A stretch of DNA of 64,000 nucleotides, from positions 1 through 64,000 of the forward strand of contig JAJUJL010000006.1 in NCBI GenBank assembly GCA_029265355.1. Reading direction: 5' to 3'. The translations under genes and the position numbers were made by a program. Origin of the DNA: Chloroflexota bacterium. GTDB lineage: Bacteria; Chloroflexota; Anaerolineae; Anaerolineales; UBA4823. Positions 43,521 through 53,000 of the stretch are shown here, piece by piece; the stretch's first letter is position 1; each line of letters opens with the position of its first letter. A model generated the notes under the pieces. It had not been told where the DNA came from and did not search any database. It was given only the letters and a program-made list of their open reading frames with translations.

Positions 43521-44072
43521 CTATTGAAATGGTTGTAAGCAGGTATCGCAGATAATTTTGCCTTCACGTAAAACAGAGGCGGTCACCTGTATCGCTCGAG
43601 GCGGGTTGCAGGCGCAAGTTGCCAGCAGCCATGGCTCTCCGGCTTCGGCGTGCTCGAGCAGGTCCTCTACCAGGACCATGGCGCGAATGAGCGAGTAATT
43701 CTGGTCGATAGCTTTCGCCAGGCGTTCCAGGGCGGCTGACCATTTCAAGATGGCTTCCGAGGCCAGCATCCAGCATTTCTGTCCATCATAGGGGTCGATC
43801 ATAGAGATCAAGCCAAAGGCGCGCGCCGGCCGCGTGTACCACGGCGAAAAGCGGGAAACATTTTCCATAGCCTCTAAGATCATGTGCGCCAGCACCATTT
43901 TCGCTGCTTGGAAAGGTTTGGAGATGTCAACGTTTGCAAACAGTGTCTTGACATCCGGCAGACACCCGCCGGAGTCATAGGTGCAGCTAATTGTTTGCCA
44001 GATCCGTCCTAAAACATCATCCAGAAATTCGGCAGGATCTGTGACGGCGGGTGGTTGGGTCAGGTTTTCCAT
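43521..44072 (-). CDS. Unknown Cys-rich protein at the end of the hdr-met operon
   Basis: A 183-aa product not assigned to a family. The middle is helical (AKMVLAHMILEAMENV); the C terminus has CACNPP and CDTC, which could bind a metal or an iron-sulfur cluster. The ATG at 44072 is preceded by GGAGG; the frame extends upstream to 44147, where it overlaps the HdrCB gene. Its position as last gene of a conserved redox operon suggests a link to the reductase complex. Confidence 0.6.
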   Translation of the reverse strand: MENLTQPPAVTDPAEFLDDVLGRIWQTISCTYDSGGCLPDVKTLFANVDISKPFQAAKMVLAHMILEAMENVSRFSPWYTRPARAFGLISMIDPYDGQKCWMLASEAILKWSAALERLAKAIDQNYSLIRAMVLVEDLLEHAEAGEPWLLATCACNPPRAIQVTASVLREGKIICDTCLQPFQ

Positions 44073-44107
44073 ATCACCACCTCCATCTCTTCTCGGGGGA
44101 GCCCGGT

Positions 44108-45541
44108 TCACGCCCGGTAAAAGCCCTTCGATTCCAATAGCGGCCATGGGTCCACCATATTTTTCTGCAGCGCCGCAGCTTTGGGTGGTAAATCAAAGGC
44201 CAGCGCCATAAGCTGGGTGAAGTACAACACCGGCAGAGGCGCCGGCGGGGTTTCTGCCGCGGCTGTCATCTGGAACTGGCGCGCATCCAGATTGGTGTGG
44301 CAAAGTGGGCAGGCAACAATGATCATGTCCGCGCCGACCTGGCGTGCATGCTGTATGAGGGAGCCGCTCAATTTGAGCACGATATCGGGCCGCGTCAAGG
44401 AATGGGTCGCCCCGCAGCAAGTGGTTTTGTACGACCAATCGCGCACCTCTGCGCCTAAAGCGCGTACGATCTCATCCAGATCGGTGGGATTTTCAGGATT
44501 CTCTGCCTCGGTGACGTGTGGGGGACGGGTCAGCAGGCAGCCATAATACGTCACGACGCGCAGGCCTTGCAGTGGGCGTTTTACCCGCTGGCTGATTTTT
44601 TCTATTCCGGCATGCTTTAGCAAAGTCTGCGCCAGGGTATTCACCTGCACCAGGTCCTGGTAGCGATAGCCAATGCTCTTGGCGGCCTGCCGGCGAGCTT
44701 GCTCATGTTGGCGGATTTCATATTGGGCAGCCTTGTGGCGGTTGAAGCAAGCCGCGCAGGGCATGGTCACTTCGTGAAAACCGCTCTGCTCGATCAGGGA
44801 GAGGTTCTCCATCGGAAGGCGCAGGGCTGCTTCAGGGTCGGAGCGATGGGCGGCGCTGCTGCCGCAGCAAATCCAGCCACCAGGCTCGATCAGGCGAACA
44901 TCCAAAGCCTCACAGATGGCGCGGGTCGAAAGGTCAAACTCAGGTGAGGTGGAATGCAAAGAGCAGCCCGGATAATAGGCCACGGAATCGACAGCTTCTG
45001 GAAGGCGTTTTACCTTGCGCGGTGGGCGGGCGTAATGCGGCAGGAAAGGCATTTTGCGTTTTTGCAACATTCGCATGCCCAGGTCGAGGTCGCTGAACAG
45101 GTCACCAGTGCGCAGTTTCATTTCCGCGAGCAAGCCCAGCTCGTACGAGCGGCCCCACAGGCGTAGTTCGCGCATGAAAGCTTCGTTGAAGATCTTGATC
45201 TCGGAAACGGGCGGCGTATAACCCTGGGCCAGGGCTTCGCGGGTCAGGAAATCCATTATGGCAGCGATGTCCAACCCCTGCGGGCAGCGCGTGGTGCAGG
45301 TCTGGCACGAGGCGCACAGCCAGGGAGTTTGCGCCTTGAGAGCGATTTCCTCTTCGCCAAGTTGAACAGCGCGCATGATCTGGTTGGGTTGCCAGTCGAA
45401 GTACTCGGACAAGGGGCAGCCCGCGGAACATTTGATGCATTGGTAACATAGATAGACATTTTGCCCAAGCGCTTCCTGGATCGCGCGCGCCAGCGAGTCA
45501 TCGATGGTTATGGGTCTTTCGGTGAGGGGTTGCTCGGCCAT
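44108..45541 (-). CDS. HdrC-HdrB fusion (heterodisulfide reductase-like)
   Basis: A 477-aa fused electron-transfer subunit. The N-terminal HdrC part (about 1-190) has two [4Fe-4S] motifs, CYQCIKCSAGCP and CASCQTCTTRCP. The HdrB part (about 195-477) has two CCG domains: CSLHSTSP ... WICCGSSAAH ... PCAACFN and YYGCLLTRP ... TTCCGATHSL ... CPLCHTN, the site of the unusual non-cubane clusters. In acetogens HdrBC lies with MetVF and HdrA. Here the fused gene follows metF by 16 bases. Confidence 0.93.
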   Translation of the reverse strand: MAEQPLTERPITIDDSLARAIQEALGQNVYLCYQCIKCSAGCPLSEYFDWQPNQIMRAVQLGEEEIALKAQTPWLCASCQTCTTRCPQGLDIAAIMDFLTREALAQGYTPPVSEIKIFNEAFMRELRLWGRSYELGLLAEMKLRTGDLFSDLDLGMRMLQKRKMPFLPHYARPPRKVKRLPEAVDSVAYYPGCSLHSTSPEFDLSTRAICEALDVRLIEPGGWICCGSSAAHRSDPEAALRLPMENLSLIEQSGFHEVTMPCAACFNRHKAAQYEIRQHEQARRQAAKSIGYRYQDLVQVNTLAQTLLKHAGIEKISQRVKRPLQGLRVVTYYGCLLTRPPHVTEAENPENPTDLDEIVRALGAEVRDWSYKTTCCGATHSLTRPDIVLKLSGSLIQHARQVGADMIIVACPLCHTNLDARQFQMTAAAETPPAPLPVLYFTQLMALAFDLPPKAAALQKNMVDPWPLLESKGFYRA

Positions 45542-45557: not shown

Positions 45558-46589
45558 TCAATTGACCTGGGGCCGCGGGTAAAGTCCGGCGCCTTCGACG
45601 ATAGGCTTGACAGCCTCTTCCCATTCGATAGCCATGATATGTACGCCGGAAACGCCCTTGATCTGGCGGAGTTGCTGGATCAGCTCGATGCAAATTTGTA
45701 TGCCTTCTTGCTGCCAGGCGACCGTGCGCGCCTTCTTATCTTCTTTGGTCAATTCTTCCTTCTTTTTTCCGGCCCACGGCGCACCGGCGGCTTCCATCCG
45801 CTCGATCAGTGCGTCGGGAACCAGAATACCCGGCACCTGCTGCTGCATGTAGCGCGCCATGGTTGGGCTCTTGAGCGGACCCACACCTGCCAGGATGAAG
45901 GTTTGCTCGTGTAAGCCCAAGGCGCGCACCTTCTCCATGAATTTTGAGAATGCCTCCACGTCGTACACCAACTGGGTCTGGATGAAATTTGCTCCGGCTT
46001 TCACCTTTTTTCCCAGGCGATAAGGGCGAAACTCCACCGGACCGGCGAAAGGAGCCGCGGCAGCACCGATGAAAAAGCGCGGTTCGGCGCCCTTCAAGGG
46101 ATCGCCGCATTCGAAGACGTGCTCATCACGCATGGCGGCAACCATGTGAATCAACTGGATCGAGTCCATATCAAAGACATTTTTAGCCTGGGGGTGGTTG
46201 CCGAAGCTCTGGTGGTCGCCAGTCAGGCAGAGCACGTTGCGCAAACCCAGGGCGTACGCCCCGAGCAGGTCGCTCTGCATCGCCAGGCGGTTACGATCCC
46301 GGCAAGTCATCTGCATGACAGGTTCCAGGCCTTCTTGCAGGGCAATCGCCGCAGCGCCGATGCTGGACATGCGCACGATGGCGGTCTGGTTGTCGGTGAT
46401 GTTGACGGCATCGCAGTAGCCGCGCAAGAGAGCCGCCTTTTGACGGATGACCTGAGCGTCAGCGCTCTGGGGTGGTCCAAGCTCGGCAGTAACCGCAAAG
46501 TGACCGGCGCGCAGCACACGCTCCAGGTTTGACCCGGCCAGGTAACCATTGCTATGGGCTTTTTGTTCCAACGTGGTTTGATCGCTCAT
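45558..46589 (-). CDS. metF: Methylenetetrahydrofolate reductase, MetF subunit
   Basis: A 343-aa TIM-barrel flavoprotein reducing methylene-THF to methyl-THF. Visible family parts are FAVTAELGPPQSADAQVIRQKA, DAVNITDNQTAIVRMSS (FAD contacts), VMQMTCRDRNRLAMQSDLLGAYALG, LCLTGDHQSFG and GANFIQTQLVYDVEAF. It lies three bases after metV and is read with MetV and Hdr subunits, so the electron donor is likely the Hdr complex rather than NADH alone. Confidence 0.95.
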   Translation of the reverse strand: MSDQTTLEQKAHSNGYLAGSNLERVLRAGHFAVTAELGPPQSADAQVIRQKAALLRGYCDAVNITDNQTAIVRMSSIGAAAIALQEGLEPVMQMTCRDRNRLAMQSDLLGAYALGLRNVLCLTGDHQSFGNHPQAKNVFDMDSIQLIHMVAAMRDEHVFECGDPLKGAEPRFFIGAAAAPFAGPVEFRPYRLGKKVKAGANFIQTQLVYDVEAFSKFMEKVRALGLHEQTFILAGVGPLKSPTMARYMQQQVPGILVPDALIERMEAAGAPWAGKKKEELTKEDKKARTVAWQQEGIQICIELIQQLRQIKGVSGVHIMAIEWEEAVKPIVEGAGLYPRPQVN

Positions 46590-46592
46590 CGT

Positions 46593-47276
46593 CTATTCCT
46601 CCTTGGTGGGCAGCCTCAGGTCTTCTCGGACGATTTTGCGGGGACCGCCGTCGCGGGATGTGCGCCAATTCTTCGGTGGTTGAATCTCCATCAGAAGGTG
46701 CAGCTTATCCATGCTGAGCAGGCGGTCGTAGATCAATTGCCAGGCGCAGGGGGTGTCTGGGCTGATTTCGCAATGTCCATCCTCTGAACCGCCGCACGGA
46801 CCGTTCAGCAGAGATTTGGAACAGCGCGCGATTGGGCAGATGCCGCCGGTAAGCCCCAATATGCAATCCCCACAAGCCGCGCAGCGTTCCACCCATACAC
46901 CCTGCTCGCTGGGCAAACCCAGAAAGGTCGTATTTAAACCTGGTACCACCCATTTCTGCGGAAAGTGTTCCGCAATGGCTTGCACACCGATGCCGCAGCC
47001 CAGCGAAAGCACGATATCGGCTTGTTGTACCAGCTCGGCGATTTGATCCAGGTACTCCCATTCGCACTGGCGCTGGACGGTTTCATGGCGAATCTCTTGT
47101 GGTTTGCCGTCCAGGCGGGTGGACATACGCAGAGAGGCCGCCAATATGGCCGCTTCACGCTCGCCGCCGGCAAAACAAACGGTGACACAGGTGCCGCAGC
47201 CAACCACGAGCACGTTTTGGGCGTTGCTGATCAGAGCCTTAATCTCCTGCAATGGTTTTTGTTCGGCAACAATCAT
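46593..47276 (-). CDS. metV: MetV subunit of methylenetetrahydrofolate reductase
   Basis: A 227-aa iron-sulfur/zinc subunit (methylene-THF reductase C-terminal domain). It has CGTCVTVCFAGGERE (N-terminal Cys pair), LSLGCGIGVQAIAE, ERCAACGDCILGLTGGICPIARCSKSLLNGPCGG (multi-Cys cluster) and HCEISPDTPCAWQLIYDRL. In acetogens MetV holds clusters and a zinc and partners MetF. It lies 38 bases after the selenocysteine-containing mvhD. Confidence 0.93.
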   Translation of the reverse strand: MIVAEQKPLQEIKALISNAQNVLVVGCGTCVTVCFAGGEREAAILAASLRMSTRLDGKPQEIRHETVQRQCEWEYLDQIAELVQQADIVLSLGCGIGVQAIAEHFPQKWVVPGLNTTFLGLPSEQGVWVERCAACGDCILGLTGGICPIARCSKSLLNGPCGGSEDGHCEISPDTPCAWQLIYDRLLSMDKLHLLMEIQPPKNWRTSRDGGPRKIVREDLRLPTKEE

Positions 47277-47314: not shown

Positions 47315-47776
47315 TCACTCCGCTGAGTATGGCTTTTGCTTCAAGCGATTAGGACCAAGTTCCTGGATAAGTTGTGACATTTCTAGCGCCTTCTCGGCAA
47401 ACTGGCTGCCCATAGCGGAAGATAAGTTGTAGAAACGAACCCGCTGCTTCTCCAGGCCAATTTGCTCGAGGAGATGCTGTACTCGTTCAACTCTTCTTTT
47501 TGCGTTTACATTACCTTCCAGGTAATGACAGTCTCCGGGCAGTCAGCCTGCGACCATCACTCCATCCGCGCCTTGCTCGAAAGCATGCAGCACCATGAGC
47601 ACGTCCAATTTGCCCGAGCACGGCAATTGCACAATTTTGATCGAGGGTGGATATTGCATACGCAGAGTGCCTGCCAGGTCTGCAGCAGCGTAAGCGCAGT
47701 GCTCACAGGCATAACAAACAATTTGCTGCTGCCACACCTGGTTTGCTTCTCGGTTCCTGGTTACCTGTTGATCCAT
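47315..47776 (-). CDS. mvhD: MvhD-family iron-sulfur subunit, predicted selenoprotein (UGA = Sec78)
   Basis: Reading UGA at 47543-47545 as selenocysteine gives 153 aa, ending at TGA 47315-47317. The N-terminal part has IVCYACEHCAYAAADLAG and RMQYPPSIKIVQLPCSGKLD; after the UGA come LPGDCHYLEGNVNAKRRVERVQHLLEQIGL and FYNLSSAMGSQFAEKALEM, both strong family matches. UGA sits at the conserved Cys of GADGV-x3-C/U-x4-CH (the paralogue at 52452 has VACPIGNCHH). VhuD of methanogens, a homologue, is a known selenoprotein. A SECIS-like hairpin follows. A shorter call (47543-47776) would be a truncation artefact. It starts two bases after the HdrA gene. Confidence 0.85.
47509..47527 (-). promoter_or_regulatory. 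SECIS-like hairpin of the mvhD mRNA
   Basis: On the minus strand CATTACC and GGTAATG form a perfect seven-base stem with loop TGGAA. The loop begins 22 bases after the in-frame UGA and has G as its second base, which fits the bacterial SECIS rule (loop 16-37 bases after UGA with an early G). It lies inside the coding sequence, as bacterial SECIS elements do. Confidence 0.7.
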
Positions 47777-52451: not shown

Positions 52452-53000
52452 CTACCTGGCGGCTTTTCTCCCTCGAAAGCCGGGTTCGTCCTCCTCATCA
52501 GAGATCATTTCCTGCACTTGTGCCTTCGCTTGGGCCAGTCTTTTTAGTGGATTCGGTCCGAGTTTGCGGATGCGCTCAGTCATGGTTTGGGCTGCCATGG
52601 CAAAGGTCTGACCTTGGGAGCCTGACATGAAGAACATGTCCACGCGATCACCTCCCAAGCCAATGTCATCCAAAAGACGTTTGGCGCGCTGGATCCTGGC
52701 CAGACCACGCTCATTGCCGCGCACATGGTGGCAATTGCCGATGGGACAAGCCACCTGGTAAACACCATCGGCGCCCTGTTCGAAAGCTTCCAGGATATAG
52801 CGGATATCTGTTTTGCCCGTGCAGGGCAGGCGAATGAACTTGACATTGGCGGGATACTGGATATGCAGCGCACCAGCGGTGTCGGCTGCCATATATCCAC
52901 AGTAGACACAGTAGAACGCGGTGATCTCGGGCTCGAAGTTTAGATCTACATTGACATCTGCACGCTCAATCATGTGTTTACTCATCCCAAGTTCGAACAT
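52452..53000 (-). CDS. mvhD: MvhD-family iron-sulfur subunit (Cys form)
   Basis: A 182-aa subunit that passes electrons to HdrA in Mvh/Hdr complexes. It has AFYCVYCGYMAADTAGALHIQYP, RLPCTGKTDIRYILEAFEQG, VACPIGNCHHVRGNERGLARI and FMSGSQGQTFAMAAQTM. Cys is present where the second copy has UGA. The Met at 53000, or those at codons 6 and 10, could start translation. It lies between the two HdrA genes. Confidence 0.92.
   Translation of the reverse strand: MFELGMSKHMIERADVNVDLNFEPEITAFYCVYCGYMAADTAGALHIQYPANVKFIRLPCTGKTDIRYILEAFEQGADGVYQVACPIGNCHHVRGNERGLARIQRAKRLLDDIGLGGDRVDMFFMSGSQGQTFAMAAQTMTERIRKLGPNPLKRLAQAKAQVQEMISDEEDEPGFRGRKAAR

Follow-up and report, generated by a model that had tools for sequence, protein, structure and literature searches.

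In solved Hdr complexes, MvhD has a [2Fe-2S] cluster from which the bifurcating flavin of HdrA receives electrons (PMC12350162, PMC6019823), and in the Moorella complex MvhD is linked to MetVF (PMC6085437). Members of this family that contain selenocysteine (Sec) have been described previously. VhuD of methanogens (Methanococcus) is one of these (PMC13188914), Desulfobacterium autotrophicum has four Sec-MvhD copies (mvhD1, 2, 3 and 5; PMC2702500), and 19 FrhD selenoproteins with Sec/Cys exchanges were reported in 2006 (PMC1794560); the FrhD of Syntrophobacter is also among the known cases. An earlier note on the DNA studied here rightly named VhuD as a known Sec-containing member, but its view of novelty has to be corrected for the bacterial cases (PMC2702500, PMC1794560). 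Since Sec-MvhD and Sec-FrhD are already known, what appears to be new is the distribution in Chloroflexota and a pattern of two Sec sites. Here, we analyze an mvhD gene that is interrupted by an in-frame UGA. It is located in a 64,000-nucleotide stretch of a Chloroflexota contig, referred to below as the window (Table 1).

Table 1. Features of the mvhD locus in the window.
Feature	Coordinates	Strand	Description
mvhD (Sec)	47315..47776	minus	153-aa MvhD/FlpD; UGA, predicted Sec, at codon 78; terminal TGA 47317-47315
Predicted Sec codon, in-frame UGA	47543..47545	minus	family-invariant Cys position
Bacterial SECIS hairpin (predicted)	47509..47527	minus	CATTACC (47527-47521), loop TGGAA (47520-47516), GGTAATG (47515-47509); 7 bp
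metV	46593..47276	minus	Pfam DUF5981, methylene-THF reductase C-terminal; directly downstream of mvhD (Sec)
metF	45558..46589	minus	Pfam MTHFR
hdrCB fusion	44108..45541	minus	4Fe-4S and two CCG domains
HdrL-like long HdrA, 1545 aa	47779..52416	minus	inserted GltD/NfnB-like NAD(P)H/FAD part
mvhD paralogue, Cys kept	52452..53000	minus	Pfam and alignment
HdrA-like protein, 1106 aa	53042..56362	minus	Pfam

The interrupted mvhD gene and its orthologues

The gene has the boundaries proposed in the earlier note and is on the minus strand; no gene was found when the plus strand of 47315-47776 was read for coding. The product (47776-47315) reads M...GADGVMVAGU78LPGDCHYLEGN...SAE and is followed by TGA. 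Ordinary ORF calling returns only a 77-aa ORF (47543-47776), which is the truncated protein that the note had expected from automatic annotation. Past the UGA, 75 conserved codons continue in the mvhD frame, in agreement with the note, and the match to Pfam FlpD (PF02662) spans residues 19-141, reading through the UGA with 158-164 bits against a cut-off of 22.3. A genome-wide profile search also reports an FlpD match with one TGA inside. Among the solved relatives, all of them MvhD subunits from Hdr complexes, are 7bkb_F and 5odc_D; the aligned structures establish the fold of the protein. The three alignments examined are gap-free across the UGA site, where these relatives have a cysteine. 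Cysteines 24, 27, 53 and 83 are present in essentially all aligned homologues and position 78 is either U or Cys, consistent with the claim that the UGA falls on a conserved Cys position.

Orthologue searches covering the family, the class and GTDB contigs yielded 113 different genes with Sec and 41 orthologues with Cys, which thinning at 90% nucleotide identity reduced to 105 and 39, respectively. UGA is found in column 78 in all 105 non-redundant Sec orthologues, nearly all of which are from Chloroflexota. This column is otherwise Cys, with one Arg in a partial paralogue as the sole exception among homologues, and neither Trp nor Gly occurs there in the homologues aligned. Elsewhere in the alignment, in-frame UGAs occur in only three cases, close to its ends (columns 8 and 150), and the recurrence of UGA in one column far exceeds chance. 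Downstream of the UGA, protein identity averages 59% (141 comparisons) and substitutions stay concentrated at third positions. The alignment of both MvhD copies with their homologues, proposed in the note as a check, therefore gave Cys or UGA at the column and conservation behind it. Sec and Cys interchange at least 14 times on the protein tree, a number that is approximate, and in which directions are unreadable, because the tree is built on few columns and is poorly resolved.

Of the 99 Sec genes with Leu at codon 79, immediately after the UGA (47542-47540), 94 use CTG; this codon is more conserved than most of the Sec mvhD gene and may be part of the recoding context. The only column-78 MetVF-linked Sec copy labelled as another phylum (L209/L263) is from a record titled Acidobacteria bacterium metabat2.299, and could represent a mislabelled bin or a transfer.

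The predicted SECIS hairpin and the Sec machinery

A seven-base-pair hairpin with a G early in its loop follows the UGA, as described in the earlier note; the distance of 22 nt given there, however, is that to the loop (G at loop position 2), and the stem begins at 15 nt. The stem pairs codons 84-86 (CAT TAC C) with codons 88-90 (GGT AAT G). The encoded amino acids leave no freedom at the partner bases, so that the stem can form only with CAT, TAC, GGT and AAT. We compared synonymous codons between Sec and Cys genes in preference to counting compensatory changes, since the stem columns hardly vary. Codon 84 is CAT in 105/105 Sec genes, compared to 15/39 Cys orthologues (Fisher p 2e-17), codon 88 is GGT in 105/105 compared to 6/39 (p 9e-27), and codon 89 is AAT in 103/105 compared to 19/39 (p 8e-12). 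TAC at codon 85 is found in 105/105 Sec genes and in 12/14 Cys orthologues, and CTG at codon 86 in all 99 Leu cases of the Sec genes. Elsewhere in the Sec genes, the usage of these codons is 38% for CAT, 61% for TAC, 21% for GGT and 41% for AAT, and codon conservation along the Sec genes peaks at the hairpin. Within the first set of Sec genes, codon 86 ends in G, the base at loop position 2, in 80/80 cases. Six or more of the seven stem pairs form in 78/80 Sec genes, 5/16 Cys orthologues and 0/43 paralogues. Judged from codon choice, the hairpin is under selection as RNA, and in Sec genes only.

No Rfam SECIS match was obtained over the window at the gathering threshold, or around the hairpin at E up to 5; Rfam-type models cover bacterial SECIS elements poorly. 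Two Cys genes (TGC or TGT in L028/L160 and in one copy in L087/L215) have the hairpin intact and apparently represent recent Sec-to-Cys changes. Such changes have already been described in other families (PMC1794560). L087 has both versions, one with Sec and one with Cys, on a single contig.

The source genome, which is 98% complete, contains the entire set of genes that the earlier note had suggested searching for as selA, selB, selC and selD. Profile searches identified SelA (448 bits), SelB (344 bits, cut-off 242) and SelD (358 bits, above cut-off), and a tRNA-Sec with the anticodon TCA in the gene (UCA in the tRNA) is also present. SelA is found in 315 of the 396 genomes of the class and in 62 of the 66 that have a Sec or Cys MvhD of the MetVF-linked type, and genomes with a Cys MvhD likewise retain the Sec machinery; given its spread in the class, the machinery is necessary but not discriminating, and serves as a consistency check only. 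SelD itself has an in-frame TGA in its UxxK motif (CAGUASK), and FdhA, the formate dehydrogenase alpha subunit, is matched with 801 bits and one in-frame TGA. SelD (L018/L056) and FdhA (L264) are thus two further likely selenoproteins of this genome.

Readings of the UGA and the role of the operon

The best explanation, which we hold to be very probably correct, is that MvhD is made at full length as a selenoprotein, with Sec at UGA78. The Sec machinery, the UGA/Cys alternation in column 78, the identity after the UGA and the codon selection in the hairpin all agree with the selenocysteine proposed in the earlier note. TGA is one base away from TGC and TGT, and the end of the called ORF at the UGA is what would be expected if a recent point mutation, pseudogene formation, or a sequencing or assembly error had produced a truncated protein. 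This highly improbable reading is already refuted by the comparative data: the same UGA occurs in more than 100 independent genes of many genera, the 75 codons behind it are conserved at the protein level, and selection on the hairpin codons is limited to genes with UGA. The frame would likewise be open if the organism had reassigned UGA to Trp or Gly as an ordinary sense codon. As mvhD itself terminates with TGA, reassignment is refuted and its probability is practically negligible; column 78 alternates between Cys and UGA, with no Trp or Gly, and the genome has a tRNA-Sec with the TCA anticodon and a full sel set.

The UGA might also act as a selenium-sensing switch, such that Sec-MvhD would be produced only when selenium is available and the 77-aa fragment or a Cys paralogue would serve otherwise, comparable to vhu/vhc of Methanococcus. 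We regard this as unlikely, and it does not conflict with Sec insertion. The MvhD paralogue of the operon does keep Cys, as the note had stated, and a further Cys paralogue is present in the genome (C5:102744); PMC2702500 cites Vhu/Vhc replacement when selenium is limiting. However, the operon paralogue is 44% identical to Sec-MvhD and occupies a different, co-conserved position in the operon, and thus is no obvious stand-in.

Recoding at UGA78 is strongly supported by the sequence comparisons, and we infer the partner of the protein and the redox effect of Sec. With Sec insertion as the preferred reading, SelB and Sec-tRNA (UCA) would bind the hairpin that closely follows UGA78, and Sec would be inserted for one of five invariant cysteines (24, 27, 53, 78 and 83) of a [2Fe-2S] protein, the cluster being predicted by analogy with MvhD of solved Hdr complexes.

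Pfam matches and gene order identify HdrA, MvhD, MetV, MetF and HdrCB, in keeping with the MetVF-Hdr type of operon recognized in the note. The order HdrA-MvhD(Cys)-HdrL-like HdrA-MvhD(Sec)-MetV-MetF-HdrCB recurs across the class. MetV usually follows immediately after the Sec gene in relatives, and the Cys orthologues of Pseudomonadota, Thermodesulfobacteriota, Planctomycetota and Actinomycetota are mostly MetV-adjacent too. Based on the conserved order from HdrA to HdrCB, the most likely role of Sec-MvhD is electron transfer between Hdr and methylene-THF reductase. It would act as a one-electron connector that is modulated by Sec; Sec78 probably tunes the cluster or its redox partner, by lowering the potential, speeding up exchange or protecting against irreversible oxidation. 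The GltD/NfnB-like insert of the HdrL-like HdrA points to NAD(P)H as the electron donor of the complex. A 208-aa ORF past hdrCB (43521-44147, minus strand) has no Pfam match, and weak homologues are found at the same place in a few relatives (L143, L087 and L097).

Comparison with known selenoproteins and MetVF-Hdr operons

One uncultured Desulfobacterium genome contains column-78 Sec MvhDs with the same hairpin codons (L256, L257 and L258) as well as column-27 Sec MvhDs (L256, L258 and L260), and has UGA at both columns in L259. Its two MetVF-linked MvhDs use column 27 (L258, G433:C1:1909000-1920000; L260, G433:C1:1647000-1654000). We give about even chances to the proposal that MetVF-linked MvhD acquired Sec in independent events at two different cysteines, at column 78 in the Chloroflexota and at column 27 in the Desulfobacteria, and that Sec and Cys were exchanged repeatedly. 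If so, one and the same electron connector of Wood-Ljungdahl metabolism would be tuned by selenium at either cysteine.

The apparently broken gene is almost certainly intact and encodes an electron-transfer protein with selenium, part of an enzyme complex for carbon fixation. Many uncultured Chloroflexota thus probably have a selenium-dependent step in their MetVF-Hdr methylene-THF reductase, the MvhD subunit of which would be truncated by annotation pipelines that stop at UGA. The more than 100 Sec genes, together with about 40 Cys orthologues in which the SECIS element is a remnant or absent, form a natural collection in which the function of selenium at site 78 and the gain and loss of Sec can be studied.

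In the open-access literature, we found no report of Sec-MvhD from Chloroflexota or from any operon linked to MetVF. The breadth of Sec-MvhD in Chloroflexota MetVF-Hdr operons appears to be unreported, as does column-27 Sec (CxxU) in MetVF-linked Desulfobacterium MvhD. Like the Sec-containing FrhD, MvhD and VhuD of methanogens and Deltaproteobacteria, the Chloroflexota protein belongs to PF02662, has Sec in place of a conserved Cys and is encoded in an Hdr-linked operon. In contrast to these, its gene lies between an HdrL-like HdrA and MetV-MetF, and its motif is UxxxxC, whereas a review gives CxxU for the known family. HdrA, MvhD, MetV and MetF are shared with the known MetVF-Hdr counterpart, and HdrCB is fused as in DscP3. 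The description of that counterpart does not mention selenocysteine in MvhD, and the present operon differs from it in having two HdrA-like and two MvhD genes, with an HdrL/GltD-like insert in one HdrA. HdrL of Desulfobacterium autotrophicum is similarly a fusion of HdrA with a glutamate-synthase-like NAD(P)H part and has mvhD after it (PMC2702500). However, the HdrL-like protein described here is metVF-linked and contains no UGA, whereas HdrL1 and HdrL3 of Desulfobacterium autotrophicum are themselves selenoproteins (PMC2702500).
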